A DNA stretch of 64,000 nt from Deferrisoma camini S3R1 (GTDB lineage Bacteria; Desulfobacterota; Deferrisomatia; Deferrisomatales; Deferrisomataceae). The stretch covers positions 3,001,014-3,065,013 of the forward strand of contig NZ_JAFN01000001.1 in NCBI RefSeq assembly GCF_000526155.1, read 5' to 3'. Below are positions 9,784 through 61,546 of the stretch, piece after piece (the stretch's first letter is position 1; every line of letters starts with the position of its first letter). The notes under the pieces are model-generated. The model worked only from the letters and a program-made list of their open reading frames with translations, was not told the origin of the DNA and searched no databases. The translations under genes and the position numbers were made by a program.

Positions 9784-9859
9784 CGCCGTTTCCCTTCCTC
9801 CCCCGCTTGCTTTCCGGCCGCGGCCCTGAGACGAACGATCCCGCCCAACCCTTCCCAGG

Positions 9860-9938
9860 AACTTCGGTCGTCGGTCGTCAGTCGTTGGTCGCCGGTCGGG
9901 GGCCTTCGGCCCGCTGGGCAGCTAGGCGGCTAGGCGGC
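9860..9938 (-). repeat. Composite repeat: heptad array, hairpin, octads
   Basis: ACTTCGGTC opens a 7-nt array (GTCGGTC, GTCAGTC, GTTGGTC, GCCGGTC). The hairpin GGGCCTTCGGCCCGC and the octads GCTAGGCG follow. The ACTTCGGTC boundary faces the start of the solute-binding gene. It shares modules with the repeats at 11753, 15717, 40278 and 61395. Confidence 0.75.
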
Positions 9939-10311
9939 TAAAACCTGCGTGATTCCATCTTCGTAGCTTGCACGAACCTGTGGGAGCGGCTCCCGATGGC
10001 GCCGCCGTCGACCCGCGGGCAGGGGGTCTGCTGGCGCGCTGGGCGCGGCCGGATTCAGGGGTCAGAATTCAGAGGACAGCGGACAGGAAAATCGCAGGAG
10101 CGGTTTTCCCCTGTCTTCTGTCCACCGGGTCCTGATTCCTGAAATGCAGGTCCCTTGCCCCCGAGGGGCCCCCGGTTCGAGCGCGACTCGGTATCAGTTC
10201 TATCCATTCGGCACGTGAGCGGGAGCACTTGACTCTCCCGCCGACACCCCGGCCGCCGGGTCTCCCCTGCCCAGGGGGGATCACGAGGCGATTCCCCGGC
10301 AAAGGCCCGGC
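9939..10311. other. Intergenic gap with degenerate 7-nt arrays and an inverted repeat
   Basis: No gene is seen. Bases 10051-10091 read as 7-nt units (GGATTCA, GGGGTCA, GAATTCA, GAGGACA, GCGGACA). About 30 nt later, 10104-10140 carries the inverse class (CCCTGTC, TTCTGTC, TCCTGAT). GGACAG...GGAAAA pairs with TTTTCC...CTGTCC across the centre. A single right end of the ATACC family (GCGCGACTCGGTAT) lies at about 10181-10194. Confidence 0.55.
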
Positions 10312-11618: not shown

Positions 11619-11660
11619 GAACTTCGGTCTACGGTCGACGGTCTTCGGTCTCTTGGCCCC
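11619..11660 (-). repeat. Heptad array abutting the bioA start
   Basis: GAACTTCGGTC is followed by 7-nt units CTACGGT, CGACGGT, CTTCGGT. The boundary lies 16 nt from the bioA ATG and faces it. Confidence 0.7.
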
Positions 11661-11752
11661 CAGGGCAAGTGGCTCTCGCCAACCCGGCGGCGGGGGGCGT
11701 CAGGGTACGCCGCACGTGTAGGGTCCTCCAGGGCCGATGGGGGCTTTCCAGT

Positions 11753-11890
11753 AACTTCGGTCGTCGGTCGTCAGTCGTTGGTCGTCGGTCGGGGGCCTTC
11801 GGCCCGCTGGGCACTAGGCGGCTAGGCGGCTCTCGAACCGCGCCAAAGCTCGGGGGGCGTGGGGCCTGCTGGAGCGCCCGCCTAACGGGC
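11753..11890 (-). repeat. Full composite repeat (type copy)
   Basis: Modules in order on the plus strand: TAACTTCGGTC boundary; 7-nt array (GTCGGTC, GTCAGTC, GTTGGTC, GTCGGTC); hairpin GGGCCTTCGGCCCGC; octads (CTAGGCGG); GCTCTCGAACCGCGCCAAAGC; and GGGGCCTGCTGGAG. The same order recurs at 40278-40390 and, inverted, at 61395-61534. The gap 11605-11937 holds only repeats. Confidence 0.8.
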
Positions 11891-11908
11891 CGGGCTACCC
11901 GGAATTTC

Positions 11909-11948
11909 CCTAGTTCCTAGTCTCTAGTTTCTAGTCTCTAGTCTCTGG
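11909..11948. repeat. CTAGTCT heptad array overlapping the 3' end of the SpoU-type gene
   Basis: Exact 7-nt period: TCCTAGT, CTCTAGT, TTCTAGT, CTCTAGT, CTCTGG. The TAG stop and the last two or three codons of the minus-strand methyltransferase lie inside the array. A short array of the same word (ACTAGAG) is at about 61121-61137. Confidence 0.75.
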
Positions 11949-12902: not shown

Positions 12903-13817
12903 TCACGACCTGTCCTCTGACGTCTGTCCCCCGACCCCTACCCAGCGGGCGTACGCGCCGCTGGGCAGGGGTCGGCCCGTTTCGTCGCGCACGAGCATCT
13001 CGCCCGTCTCGATCCGGTCCGGCCGGCGGGGAACCGCGGCCTCGAGAAGGTTTCCCAGGGTCGTCGGCGTGAACCCCGGGGTGTGGCAGCTCAGGAGCAC
13101 GAAGGCCGGGCCGTCGTCCAGGATCTGGGCGCAGGCTTCGAGGAGAGGCACCAGGTCGTTTTCGATCTTGAACACCTGGCCCTTGGGCCCCCGGCCGAAC
13201 GTGGGGGGGTCGAGCACGATCCCCTGGTAGCGGTTGCCCCGCCGACCCTCCCGCCGCACGAACTTGAGGGCGTCGTCCACGATCCAGCGGATGGGGTGGT
13301 CGCCCAGGCCGTTCAGGCGCGCGTTCTCCCGGGCCCACTCCACCACCCCCCGGGCCGCGTCCAGGTGGACCACGGCCGCACCGGCCTGGCTCGCGGCCAG
13401 GGTGGAGCCGCCGGTGTAGGCGAACAGGTTCAGCACGCGGGGCCGCCCGTGGCGGGCGAGCCGCCTCAGGGTCTGCCGCAGCCAGGCCCAGTTCTCCGCC
13501 TGCTCCGGAAACAGCCCCAGGTGGCCGAAGTCGGTGAGCCGCACGTGGAACCGCAAGCCCCCATAGGCGATGGGGAACTCCCGGGGCGCGTTCCGGCGCC
13601 ACTCCCACCGCCCTCCGCCCTTGTCGCTGCGGTGGTGAACGGCGTCGGCCCGCTCCCACTCGGCCGGCGCCAGCCGGCGAGGCCATACCGCTGCCAGCCC
13701 CTGGCGCACCAGTCGCAGCGGGCCCACCTGTTCGAGGCGCAGCTCTTCACCGGTGTCCAGGAGCCGGTAGGTTCCGTAACTTCGGTCGTTGGTCGTTGGT
13801 CGTTGGTCGTTGGTCAT
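12903..13817 (-). CDS. Class I SAM-dependent methyltransferase (RlmI/COG1092-like), repeat-flanked ends
   Basis: About 304 residues from the ATG at 13817. The Rossmann fold is clear: VLNLFAYTGGSTLAASQAGA (SAM loop), HLDAARGVVEWARENARLNG and the target-binding LDPPTFGRG. The early block YRLLDTGEELRLEQVG matches the N-terminus of rRNA cytosine methyltransferases of the Methyltrans_SAM type. There is no ATG or GTG between the conserved domain and the GGTCGTT array, so the only good start lies inside the repeat and the first residues are repeat-encoded. The C-terminal tail (GQTSEDRS) is likewise read from a heptad array. The start is uncertain. Confidence 0.82.
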   Translation of the reverse strand: MTNDQRPTTNDRSYGTYRLLDTGEELRLEQVGPLRLVRQGLAAVWPRRLAPAEWERADAVHHRSDKGGGRWEWRRNAPREFPIAYGGLRFHVRLTDFGHLGLFPEQAENWAWLRQTLRRLARHGRPRVLNLFAYTGGSTLAASQAGAAVVHLDAARGVVEWARENARLNGLGDHPIRWIVDDALKFVRREGRRGNRYQGIVLDPPTFGRGPKGQVFKIENDLVPLLEACAQILDDGPAFVLLSCHTPGFTPTTLGNLLEAAVPRRPDRIETGEMLVRDETGRPLPSGAYARWVGVGGQTSEDRS

Positions 13818-13818
13818 G
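13777..13818 (-). repeat. GGTCGTT heptad array inside the 5' end of the methyltransferase gene
   Basis: TAACTTCGGTC is followed by four near-perfect GGTCGTT units and then GGTCATG, which supplies the likely ATG. Gain or loss of one 7-nt unit would shift the reading frame. Confidence 0.8.
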
Positions 13819-13857
13819 GGTGGGGCTTCGGCCCGCGGGTAGGCAGGTTTCGGAATC

Positions 13858-14140
13858 ATACCAAATTGCGTTCAAGGTGATCGGCCCCTGATCCGGCGGG
13901 GCAAGGGGCCTGGTGGATCGCCGGGCGTGGCTCCTACAGTCGCTGCATCCGGCACTCAGCCGATGCCTGCCTCGCGACGATCCCGAAAATACCTTGTCAA
14001 CGTTCGCTGTCCCAACGTCCAAGGAGCACCAGGGCTGAGTGCCGGATGCAGCGTAAGTCGGATGCTGCACTCACGCACGGCCGGAACCAGGCCCCTTGTC
14101 CCGACCCCGGATGGATCTCTGTTTGAACGCAACTTGGAAT
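13858..14140. repeat. Nested repeat island: ATACC-type ends enclosing a 21-bp inverted repeat
   Basis: The outer ends 13858-13875 (ATACCAAATTGCGTTCAA) and 14123-14140 (TTGAACGCAACTTGGAAT) are near-perfect reverse complements of the dispersed palindromic family. Inside, 13941-13961 (CGCTGCATCCGGCACTCAGCC) and 14033-14053 form a perfect 21-bp inverted repeat around 71 nt. The right end touches the stop codon of the nuclease gene. No gene is seen between 13818 and 14139. Confidence 0.75.
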
Positions 14141-14764: not shown

Positions 14765-15700
14765 TTAAGGAACGGCACCGGTCGCGCCTTTCTTGAACCC
14801 CCGGGTCACGGTGGCGGCGTACACCCCGGCGAGGACCAAGGCCGCCCCCCACAGAGTGCGCGAGGTGAACGGCTCGCCCAGGAACACCACGCCCGAGGCC
14901 ACCCCCGCCAGGGGGATGCCGTAGATCAGGTTGTTGACCGCCGTGACCCCCAGCGCCGGGATGGCCGCGTTCCACAGCAGGTACCCCAGGGCCGAGCACA
15001 GCACCGCGAGGTACAGAAACGCGGCCCAGGCACCCGGCGACGGAAGCCCGACCGCAGGGGCCACGAGCCATTCCACCGCGGCCAGGGGGGCCAGGAACGC
15101 GGCCCCGCTCACCATGGCCGCCTGGGTCACCCACAGGTTCGGGTACCGCCGACCGAGCCGGTCGGCCAGGAAGGTGTACGCCACCCAGGCGAACACCGCG
15201 CCGAACATGAGCCCGTCCCCCAGGAGGCTCGCCCCCGCCCCCTCGTCGGCGCCCACGATCAACCCCACCCCGGCCAGGGCCGTGCCCAACCCCAGCAGAA
15301 CCCGCAGCCGGGGCCGGCGCCGGGACCGGGCCGCCTCGGCGAGCTGGGTGGCCAGGGGGATCGTCGCGATGATCAGGGCCCCGTGGCTCGCGGTGGTGCG
15401 GGCCAGCCCCAGGTTCTCGAACGCGAAGTAGAGGGTCACCCCCGTGAACCCAAGCCCGGCCGCGGCCCACCGGTCCTCCGGGGCAAGCCGCACGCCCCGG
15501 CACCGGGCCCGCACCAGGGGGACGAACAGGGCCGCCGCCAGCACGAAGCGCAGGAAGGCCAGGAGCAGGGGCGGAAACTCCTGCACCGCGGCCCGGGTCG
15601 CCGCATAGGAGCCTCCCCACAGCAGGATCACGAAGGTCGCCGACACCCAGTGGATCCATCGGGACGACGGCGGGGACAGGGTGACGGTGTGGGATGCCAA
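14765..15700 (-). CDS. EamA-family (DMT) transporter
   Basis: 311-residue integral membrane protein with about ten hydrophobic segments in two EamA halves (FVILLWGGSYAATRAAVQEF at the front; GLMFGAVFAWVAYTFLADRL opening the second). It probably exports small metabolites; the substrate is unknown. The TTG at 15700 was chosen because a purine-rich GGAAGGGGG precedes it and the length is normal. The frame stays open to 15991, but only through repeat DNA. The heptad boundary lies 18 nt upstream of the TTG. Confidence 0.85.
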   Translation of the reverse strand: MASHTVTLSPPSSRWIHWVSATFVILLWGGSYAATRAAVQEFPPLLLAFLRFVLAAALFVPLVRARCRGVRLAPEDRWAAAGLGFTGVTLYFAFENLGLARTTASHGALIIATIPLATQLAEAARSRRRPRLRVLLGLGTALAGVGLIVGADEGAGASLLGDGLMFGAVFAWVAYTFLADRLGRRYPNLWVTQAAMVSGAAFLAPLAAVEWLVAPAVGLPSPGAWAAFLYLAVLCSALGYLLWNAAIPALGVTAVNNLIYGIPLAGVASGVVFLGEPFTSRTLWGAALVLAGVYAATVTRGFKKGATGAVP

Positions 15701-16116
15701 GGGGCCCCCTTCCAGTAGTAACGTCGGTCGTCGGTCGCTGGTCGCTGGTCGCTGGTCGCTGGTCGTCGGTCGGGGGCCTTCGGCCCGCTCGGCAGCTAGT
15801 GTTCTGTTACGCAAAAAGTATATCCATTCCGGCGGTGGAGCTGGGGGCTCCGACGAAGCGCGACGGCCGAGCAGCCCGGGCCGCCCGGCGCCAGGGGAGC
15901 GGCCGCGGCGCGTGCTCTCACGCGCCGCAGCGGACTGCGCCGAGGCGGCCCCTGCGAGGCCGTTCAGCGAAGGAGGGGCCCCCAGCCCCACCCCTTGGGA
16001 ACAGCACGATCCGGTACACGACAGTAGTAACGTCGGTCGTCGGTCGGGGGCCTTCGGCCCGCTCGGCAGCTAGGCGGCCGGGCGGCTCTCGGCCCGCGAC
16101 AAAGCCAACCTGCGGT
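15701..16116 (-). repeat. Repeat-filled gap: two heptad modules and 153-bp element copy B
   Basis: No gene is seen. Bases 15717-15793 hold TAACGTCGGTC, a long 7-nt array (GTCGGTC, four GCTGGTC units, GTCGGTC), the hairpin GGGCCTTCGGCCCGC and CAGCTAG. About 15838-15989 is the inverted 153-bp element, with hairpin arms at 15905-15914 and 15919-15928. Bases 16022-16090 hold a second short heptad and hairpin module. All three face the EamA start. Confidence 0.8.
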
Positions 16117-25777: not shown

Positions 25778-25855
25778 GGGAACTCCAGGCTTTCGAGCTT
25801 CCCGGCCTCCCAGCTTTCCAGCCTTCTAGCTTTCCAGCTTTTCGGCCTTCCATCC
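25778..25855. repeat. Octad array between convergent genes
   Basis: Clear 8-nt period: AGCTTTCC, AGCCTTCT, AGCTTTCC, AGCTTTTC, GGCCTTCC. It lies between the palindromic element and the terminator. Confidence 0.7.
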
Positions 25856-40138: not shown

Positions 40139-40789
40139 GATCCGAGTCCCTCCGCTCGTCCGGACGTCTCCCGGGAGAGCCTGCCTGCCCGGGGCACCCC
40201 CGCCGGTCCCGTTTCCCACCTCGGTCGGGACCGCGATACCTACCACAACCCCACCCCCACTCCAAGCCCCCTTCCCGTAACTTCGGTCGACGGTCTACGG
40301 TCAACGGTCGTCGGTCTGGGGCCTTCGGCCCGCTGGGCGGCTCTCGAACCACGCCAAAGCTCGGGGGACATGGGGTCTGCTGGAGAGTCGCTGCGCGGCG
40401 GATCTCAATGCCCGGCTTCGCGCGCGGCCGGGGGCGGTCCCGCCCCCCGAGGGCTCTCGGTCCAAACGCAACTCGGTATGAGTGCCGGGGGCCCGGCAAC
40501 AGGGAAAGGGCAACTTGTCACGCCCCATTACGTGTAGGTGCGACTCCTGGTCGCGATCCTGGGCCGTGAGGCCCGGCGGGGCCTTGTCGCGGTTTGGAAG
40601 GCCGCTTCCACGGGTGAGGGCGTACGGCTTCGTCCGCAGGCTAAGGCCTACCCGGCTACCCGCACCGTTCACGAGGCCTCTTGCCGCAGCCACCGATCGC
40701 ACGCCTTCTGAAGGACAGACACGGGAAGTTTCATGCTGCCGGCACCCAACGTGGCAATCGGCCGATTGCCAAGACTACACCCGGCCGCC
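40139..40789. repeat. Repeat-rich gap: composite repeat, ATACC end, degraded MITE
   Basis: No intact gene is seen. Bases 40278-40390 are a composite repeat (TAACTTCGGTC, 7-nt units, hairpin, GGCTCTCGAACC, GGGGTCTGCTGGAG) facing the outer-membrane gene. Bases 40390-40450 are a fragment of the about 165-bp element. Bases 40470-40482 are one end of the ATACC family (CAACTCGGTATGA). Bases 40656-40706 resemble the left end of the 3728-3912 MITE-like element. Confidence 0.65.
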
Positions 40790-57356: not shown

Positions 57357-57395
57357 AACTTCGGTCAACGGTCCACGGTCATCGATCGGGACGCA
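57357..57395 (-). repeat. Heptad array upstream of the flagellar-rod-like gene
   Basis: AACTTCGGTC with 7-nt units CAACGGT, CCACGGT, CATCGAT faces the gene start, 20 nt away. Confidence 0.65.
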
Positions 57396-57429
57396 GGAAA
57401 GGGCGTTGATAGCCCGCTCACTTATTCCA

Positions 57430-58737: not shown

Positions 58738-59144
58738 GAACGCTAGGAGGCTGGGAAGCTGGGAGGCTAGGAGGTTAGGAAGCTTGAAAACCTCCCGGAT
58801 TCCCACGCCTTCTAGGAATCACCATGCCTTTTCGCCTCCACCTCACGGTCTGGGAGGAGCGCCGGGTACGGCCCCTTAGCTCGCCGCGCAGCGCCTTTGA
58901 CGCTCAGACCACGAAACGGTTCGGATTCCACCGAAGTTGTCATGAAACCAGCTTTTCGGTCCCGTGCCTGCGCGGCGAATCTCAACGCCCGGCTTCGCGC
59001 CCGGCCGGAGGCAGGTCCCTTGCCCCTCCCTCCGGGGGCGCTCTCCTTGTTTGGCCGGCCCAAATCTCCCCTGGAATTTTCGAGTCCGATCCCCTATCCT
59101 CCGCGCGGACCCCGCCCCGACCCTCACACCCCTAGGGAGGAGCC
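58738..59144. repeat. Repeat-filled gap: octad array and about 165-bp element copy P
   Basis: No gene is seen. Bases 58744-58786 are octads (AGGCTGGG, AAGCTGGG, AGGCTAGG, AGGTTAGG). Bases 58873-59040 are the about 165-bp element (CTCGCCGCGCAGCGCC...GGCTTCGCGCCCGGCC), oriented toward the cotransporter gene. GGGAGGAGCC before 59145 is the ribosome-binding site. Confidence 0.7.
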
Positions 59145-61006: not shown

Positions 61007-61546
61007 TGCGTGTCGGGCCTCGTCGACCCCTTCCGGCCGCCGCCCGGCGGGCTCGTGGTATGCTGGGGCCTCGATGCCGGGGGAAGCCCCATCAGGCCCT
61101 GTGCGGGGCCGTCCAGAGACTAGAAACTAGAGACTTAAAAACCCGGGAGTTCGGACCATTGGGCGGGGCTCTATCAGGCCCCTTTTGAAGCCGTACAACG
61201 GGAAGGTAACTTTTGTTGGTCCGGAGCCCATTGCCGGCGGCGGGTCATGGGGCCTGCTTCCGGCCGTGCGCGAGTGCAGCATCCGATCGCCGCGCCTTCG
61301 CATGCCGTTGCCGAAGTAGCCTGTTCGGGCGGCGACAGCGGAGGGCCCTGGAATTCGACAAAGCTACAGATGTTCGGGGGGCGCGGCGAGACAAGGAGCC
61401 GCGCCCGGCTCTCCAGCAGGCCCCATGCCCCCGAGCTTTGGCGCGGTTCGAGAGCCGCCGGGCTGCCTAGCCGCCCACCGGGCCGAAGGCCCCCGACCGA
61501 CGACCAACGACCAACGACCAACGACCGAAGTTACATGGAAGGCGTC
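61007..61546 (+). repeat. Repeat-filled gap with an inverted full composite repeat
   Basis: No gene is seen. Bases 61121-61137 hold the ACTAGAG heptad word. Bases 61395-61534 are the composite repeat in inverted order: CTCCAGCAGGCCCC, GAGCTTTGGCGCGGTTCGAGA, CTAGCCGCC octads, hairpin GGGCCGAAGGCCC, then GACCAAC heptads and the boundary GACCGAAGTTAC. The boundary ends at the next gene's start region. Confidence 0.75.

Follow-up and report, generated by a model that had tools for sequence, protein, structure and literature searches.

Heptad arrays facing gene starts in Deferrisoma camini S3R1 are probably one end of a mobile repeat whose orientation follows both genes and replication

Tandem arrays of 7-nt units that face start codons are already known from Beggiatoaceae and Xanthomonas. 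In the Beggiatoaceae and their relatives, TAACTGA heptads are found genome-wide in one orientation near the start codons of unrelated genes, and they have been proposed to be translational regulatory sites (PMC4679880). The GGGAATC heptads of Xanthomonas and Nostoc are intergenic and oriented to nearby open reading frames (ORFs), mostly within 50 bp of them (PMC4692102). REP sequences are 20 to 50 nt long, often occur as inverted pairs, and lie mostly 3' of genes (PMC3733652, PMC8266576); TnpA-REP cuts at CT beside GTAG palindromes (PMC8266576). Y1 elements are known to target the lagging-strand template (PMC6006769).

Here we describe heptad arrays in Deferrisoma camini S3R1, beginning with a 64-kb stretch of its DNA (the window). 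An earlier note, made from the letters of the window alone, had listed nine arrays that start at a conserved boundary and point to the 5' end of a gene. All nine were found at the positions given there (Table 1), seven with the boundary AACTTCGGTC (at 9860, 11620, 11753, 13778, 40279, 57357 and, on the minus strand, 61532) and two with AACGTCGGTC (15720 and 16029). In all nine the boundary is directed toward the 5' end of a called gene, and the only inverted copy faces the only plus-strand gene among those faced. The nine arrays belong to seven genes, with two arrays each for bioA (11620 and 11753) and EamA (15720 and 16029). With a home-made gene caller, the start distances are 15 nt for bioA, 20 nt for the rod-like gene, 14 nt for the phosphoesterase, and 140 nt for the outer-membrane gene, and the boundary at the methyltransferase again lay inside the called gene; for the solute-binding protein the distance is 77 nt, near the 76 nt given before, or 280 nt, depending on the start chosen. 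The boundary is indeed conserved, but its left limit had been set too far inward, as conservation reaches further left to give CTTCC[CA]NG[T/C]AACTTCGGTC. The modules that were said to follow the heptads are present but keep no fixed order and differ from copy to copy. Pfam supports the faced genes as aminotransferase class III (bioA-like), EamA, SAM methyltransferase, metallophosphoesterase, and family-3 solute-binding protein, and the genes 3' of the window copies are unrelated to each other. The inverted copy represents a full element at about 61160-61541. Called coding regions run into the heptads at 13747-13817 (methyltransferase 5' end) and 15660-15814 (EamA 5' end), with N termini like MTNDQRPTTNDR and PTTSDQRPAT as the result; these extensions may be genuine additions to the proteins or errors of annotation.

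Table 1. Copies of the element and an interrupting repeat in the 64-kb window
Feature	Position	Strand	Remarks
Element copy	9851..9945	+	CTTCC target-like site, AACTTCGGTC boundary (9860), 5 heptads, GGGCCTTCGGCCC hairpin, CTAGGCGG octads; toward solute-binding protein gene
Short element copy	11620..11750	+	15 nt 5' of bioA-like aminotransferase start; terminates in CCAGGGCCGATGGGGGCTTTCC, as right ends usually do
Second copy, in tandem with the 11620 copy	11753..11946	+	Boundary, heptads, hairpin, octads, GAACCGCGCCAAAGCTC module, CTAGTYT heptads
Copy with heptads overlapping the called methyltransferase 5' end	13778..13860	+	N terminus is MTNDQRPTTNDR
Copy with AACGTCGGTC boundary near EamA start	15720..15805	+	Broken at CTAG by another repeat
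Different repeat of ~220 bp (TAGTGTTCTGTTACGC...GTACACGACAGTAG) between the two EamA copies	15806..16025	none	Not part of the element
Second EamA copy, AACGTCGGTC boundary	16029..16110	+	3' of the interrupting repeat
Copy 140 nt 5' of outer-membrane-type gene	40271..40400	+	Divergent gap
Short copy 20 nt 5' of rod-like gene start	57357..57400	+	
Inverted copy, left part	61395..61541	-	14 nt 5' of plus-strand metallophosphoesterase start
Inverted copy, right end (GTTACCTTCCCGTTGTACGG...GGGGCCTGATAGAG)	61165..61219	-	nhmmer; the sole right end scoring in the window

The 10-mer AACTTCGGTC occurs 172 times (87 forward, 85 reverse) in the 4,236,551-bp genome, far above chance, and the control made by reversing its sequence gave 1+0 matches. 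For the genome-wide set, 162 places of the 172 exact copies were listed with about 5 kb on each side (1.29 Mb in total), in which a home-made hexamer model called 1242 genes. The rule that the boundary faces a 5' end holds for 143 of the 167 copies with called neighbors and is thus strong without being absolute; other copies are directed toward 3' ends, stand in tandem, or lie far from starts. Of these 143 copies, 74 are no more than 30 nt from the start codon, 14 to 20 nt being the commonest distances. Copies are neither randomly oriented relative to genes nor equally common between convergent genes, which account for 6 of the 151 element-bearing gaps versus 35 of 319 element-free gaps; either outcome would have refuted the earlier note, which is thus borne out on this point. 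These heptads resemble those of the Beggiatoaceae in being tandem, one-way, near starts, genome-wide, and next to unrelated genes (PMC4679880), and those of Xanthomonas and Nostoc in being intergenic and ORF oriented (PMC4692102). They differ in forming one end of a mobile repeat. The TAACTGA repeats are simple arrays for which the account, as far as it bears on these points, describes no mobile unit, target site, or replication bias (PMC4679880). The GGGAATC heptads, whose sequence and context are unlike those seen here, are reported to have no leading/lagging preference, and the account, again as far as it bears on these points, describes no mobile unit or target for Xanthomonas (PMC4692102).

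We consider the arrays to be, more likely than not, the left end of a nonautonomous mobile repeat that is specific to the genus and has a length of about 330 bp at the mode, a reading that goes together with a strand-biased, Y1-type insertion at CTTCC/GGAAG sites. A copy begins after a CTTCC, to which the conserved left edge extends, and continues with [AC]NGTAACTTCGGTC, 2 to 7 heptads, variable and partly palindromic modules, and GTTACCCTTCNCCGTTGTAG-[GGCCCC-GCA-GGGGCC]-TGANGGGG-CTTCC. On the 3' side of the heptads, modules are joined as a mosaic. Full-length copies (n = 89) have a median length of 327 bp and asymmetric ends. A profile search of the sampled DNA found 150 right ends, with the consensus GTTACCCTTCCCCGTTGTAG-GGCCCC-GCA-GGGGCC-TGAGGGGG-CTTCC, the stem of which is paired in 95% of cells versus 32-74% when slid and covaries through C-G to G-C changes. 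The tag before the stem is most commonly GTAG (55/126), with GCCC, GTAC, and GCCG as variants, and CTTCC is located 8 nt past the stem in 31 of the 37 right ends that have CTTCC. A strong fold of the whole element could be dismissed, as its folding as DNA is weak (of two copies, one gave z = -3.0 and the other -1.1).

When set against two other genomes of the genus, the MAGs JAADGT01 (G001) and JALUTY01 (G002), the element proves to be mobile: whole elements are present in one genome and absent from another at otherwise matching sites. The comparison between the two MAGs yielded few pairs. At the cleanest empty site, the genome of the window (G000) reads ...GCGCAC-GCTTCC-CGATC, with a single GCTTCC, and the same site is filled in G001 (L148), which reads ...GCCC-GCTTCC-[ATGGAACTTCGG...GATGGA]-GCTTCC-CGATC. 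At a second clean site (L146 versus G000:1,237,413), the new element is directed toward the 3' end of a gene and keeps the replication rule described below. These are the two clean empty sites in unique DNA; several "absent" sites were left out of the clean set because the empty allele contained other repeats. In two cases (L129 versus L182 and L178 versus L197), the left edge of an older unit has received a further, complete unit. Forty-five of the 53 alignable copies are common to species, and copies vary between genomes in heptad number, by multiples of 7, as well as in their modules and by entire units. Among the possibilities raised in the earlier note was a repeat with directed insertion, and it gains support from this presence and absence of whole elements, from the CTTCC-like insertion sites, and from the biased orientation.

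A Shine-Dalgarno 4-mer overlaps or adjoins the GGAAG of the copy in 54 of the 65 near-start copies. The CTTCC motif alone can be rejected as the cause of the preference for gene starts, as virtual insertions at free CTTCC sites fell within 30 nt of a start in 44 of 468 cases, versus 74 of 167 for the elements (odds ratio 7.7, P = 6e-21). The short motif is therefore insufficient, and either a Shine-Dalgarno context is preferred at insertion or insertions near starts are retained, the latter being an alternative because the GGAAG copy stays beside the start. The species comparison hints at such selective retention, with 30 near-start copies shared and 3 absent against 2 and 2 for the 3'-facing copies, although these numbers are small.

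The gene-facing orientation is real but is half the story, as the direction of replication also predicts orientation. The dnaA gene is located at 3,126,567, and the sign of the GC skew reverses near 1.0 and 3.1 Mb; copy orientation switches where the skew does, including at the antipode of dnaA. One replichore harbors 70 plus and 20 minus copies and the other 15 plus and 57 minus, and 127 of 162 copies are oriented the same way relative to the fork (Fisher P = 2.6e-13). When right ends are counted alone, the bias is somewhat weaker (61:27). In a logistic model, the terms for gene and for replication are both significant (P = 1.5e-12 and 4e-10, respectively), and the two directions act independently on copy orientation. 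In divergent gaps, where either orientation meets a start, 35 of 40 copies follow replication (P = 1.4e-6). A by-product of gene strand bias can be discarded, since only 58% of genes are leading and the replication term survives in the model, as can an asymmetry of the target motif, since CTTCC in element-free intergenic DNA is strand balanced (232:236). The effect could not be seen from the window because the window lies entirely on one replichore; the inverted copy at 61395-61541 breaks the rule.

Orientation bias might instead arise after insertion, through selection against one orientation due to hairpins or replication-transcription conflict. The somewhat weaker bias of right ends is in line with this, as is the older appearance of near-start copies in the small species comparison, but all four of the cleanest recent insertions are already replication consistent, one of them toward a 3' end, and we regard this explanation as rather unlikely.

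Less likely still is the possibility that the elements are mainly functional 5' leaders, acting in translation or RNA control or as binding arrays, that were spread or kept for their effect on the downstream gene, with orientation reflecting function. The prevalence of 5'-facing copies at 14 to 20 nt, the large share of copies common to species, and the precedent of the Beggiatoaceae heptads, for which a translational role is proposed in the account cited above, are what such leaders would predict. Many copies are positioned where transcription would cover them. Against this stand the independent effect of replication, divergent gaps included, and the copies that face 3' ends, stand in tandem, or lie far from starts. 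The downstream genes in the window are unrelated, and a window search gave no Rfam match at gathering score. Moreover, between-species mismatch is 5.1% in the boundary and 7.0% in the heptads versus 5.6% in adjacent, mostly coding DNA, so that boundary and heptads change about as fast as their surroundings, with no excess conservation.

The CTTCC at both ends could instead be a 5-bp target-site duplication, which raises the possibility of a MITE moved by a DDE-type transposase, the replication bias then resulting from contact of the enzyme with the replication machinery. This is similarly improbable: CTTCC-like pentamers do flank the element, the empty site has one copy (a clean GCTTCC pair, at one site), and there is imperfect inverted similarity (GTAACTTCGGTCGTTGGTC / GACCAACGNAAGTTAC) within the element, but these inverted repeats are not terminal, since hairpin sequence extends for about 45-60 bp beyond the right one, the target is almost sequence specific, and left and right pentamers do not covary. 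The outer ends (CTTCC/NNGTAAC versus TGANGGGG/CTTCC, the slash marking the edge) show no terminal inverted repeats, as similarity begins internally. Covariation of the pentamers lends no support to a simple target-site duplication, identity between left and right ends being 32 versus 28.7 for shuffled pairing (P = 0.13).

We favor a model in which a putative Y1 (TnpA-REP-like) enzyme transposes the element, with a strand bias, into CTTCC/GGAAG sites, many of which are Shine-Dalgarno sequences. The element inserts at CTTCC-like sites (GGAAG on the other strand) on a preferred strand relative to the fork, most often where GGAAG is part of, or abuts, a Shine-Dalgarno sequence. Its mover would be a Y1 HUH enzyme (TnpA-REP/IS200 type) that works on single-stranded DNA at the fork. 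With a GGAAG copy left next to the start codon, the gene keeps a ribosome-binding site, and part of the concentration at gene starts would reflect selective retention. Like the GTAG-tagged REP/TnpA-REP (RAYT) systems, the element is a high-copy intergenic palindromic repeat (PMC3733652, PMC8266576) in a genome with Y1 transposase relatives, and its right end, and only this end, displays a GTAG tag directly before a perfect stem, a 3-nt loop, and a CT step just 3'. Unlike REPs, it is about 330 bp long, combines one REP-like end with a heptad-array end, lies upstream of starts, and has no linked RAYT; in spite of the REP-like anatomy of the right end, its length and the lack of a linked enzyme argue against counting the element as an ordinary REP. 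With IS200/IS605 elements (IS608, ISDra2; PMC6006769) it shares a sequence-specific target that matches the right-end site, a subterminal hairpin, and a replication-strand bias (127/162; 35/40 in divergent gaps). It differs in having no internal tnpA and no ends in common with the IS200/IS605 copies of the genome. A match to the lagging-template rule of IS200/IS605 would hinge on which strand is transferred.

Y1_Tnp genes are present in the genome. Neither the left boundary nor the right-end hairpin of the element was found within 500-700 bp of the inspected Y1 genes, and no copy with a transposase of its own was detected. All 12 genomes of the class that were searched have RAYT-like genes, although 9 of these genomes are without the element, so that the genes cannot be matched to it by presence. 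RAYT or IS200 genes were thus rejected as an obvious partner, with neither common ends nor a phylogenetic match. The RAYT-like Y1 transposases (L202, L203, L204; G000:483701, 1933800, 1935813, 215049) are 330-345 aa long with a C-terminal extension and are flanked by repeats of their own (GGGACGCTGGTC...GACCAGCGTCCC). Four IS200 copies (L007-L010; G000:718733, 738564, 789121, 1513274) encode an identical protein, share 618-629 bp of DNA, and are apparently recent; their ends differ from those of the element.

Three genomes, all of one genus, have the left-end pattern, and the nine other genomes of the class that were searched do not; the right-end pattern was found in 3 of 297 genomes of the phylum. 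In a scan of 84,980 genomes, which possibly did not include that of the window, all 52 stretches came from the two MAGs G001 and G002. As judged from these patterns, the element is confined to one genus.

The means by which the start-facing heptads of several bacterial groups have spread has been undescribed so far, and the arrays described here form one end of a mobile repeat. The composite element, the replication bias, and the evidence for insertion appear to be new. The origin of start-facing heptads becomes testable through sites where the element is present or absent, through its defined target, and through two effects on orientation that can be told apart, and the copies amount to a natural archive of how insertion at replication forks depends on the strand. 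Many 5' leaders of the genus would consist of mobile DNA. A more specific proposal, which we advance tentatively, is that a single-strand transposition system recognizes the GGAAG of Shine-Dalgarno sequences where these are exposed on the lagging-strand template, so that a mobile 5' leader comes to lie directly in front of start codons of the leading strand, with the ribosome-binding site kept. If this is true, the start-facing heptads of bacteria would be insertion products and not evolved regulators.

Other repeats share the same space. A repeat of about 220 bp with the ends TAGTGTTCYGTTWCGCAAAAA...CACGACA(C/G)TAG occupies CTAG sites inside elements (window 15806-16025, and in G002 opposite G000:2456319) and has no replication bias (5:6). 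The pattern that served as the reversed control, GGTTGCTGGTTGCTGGTTGCTGG, is a heptad array too and has up to 23 matches per genome in other families of the phylum (G016, G080, G092, G121, G149), where it represents a separate heptad family. In a genome of the same family but another genus (G003; L267, 1498-1535), a short (GACCAAC)n array lacks the AACTTCGGTC boundary, which suggests that the heptad is older than the element or unconnected with it. Further 7- and 8-nt arrays (CTAGTYT, GCTAGGAG, AAGCTGGR) are located in the same intergenic space, in the window at 11910-11946, 58742-58784, and 25784-25852 and also genome-wide, and the CTAGTYT heptads likewise lean toward one replication orientation (45:20).
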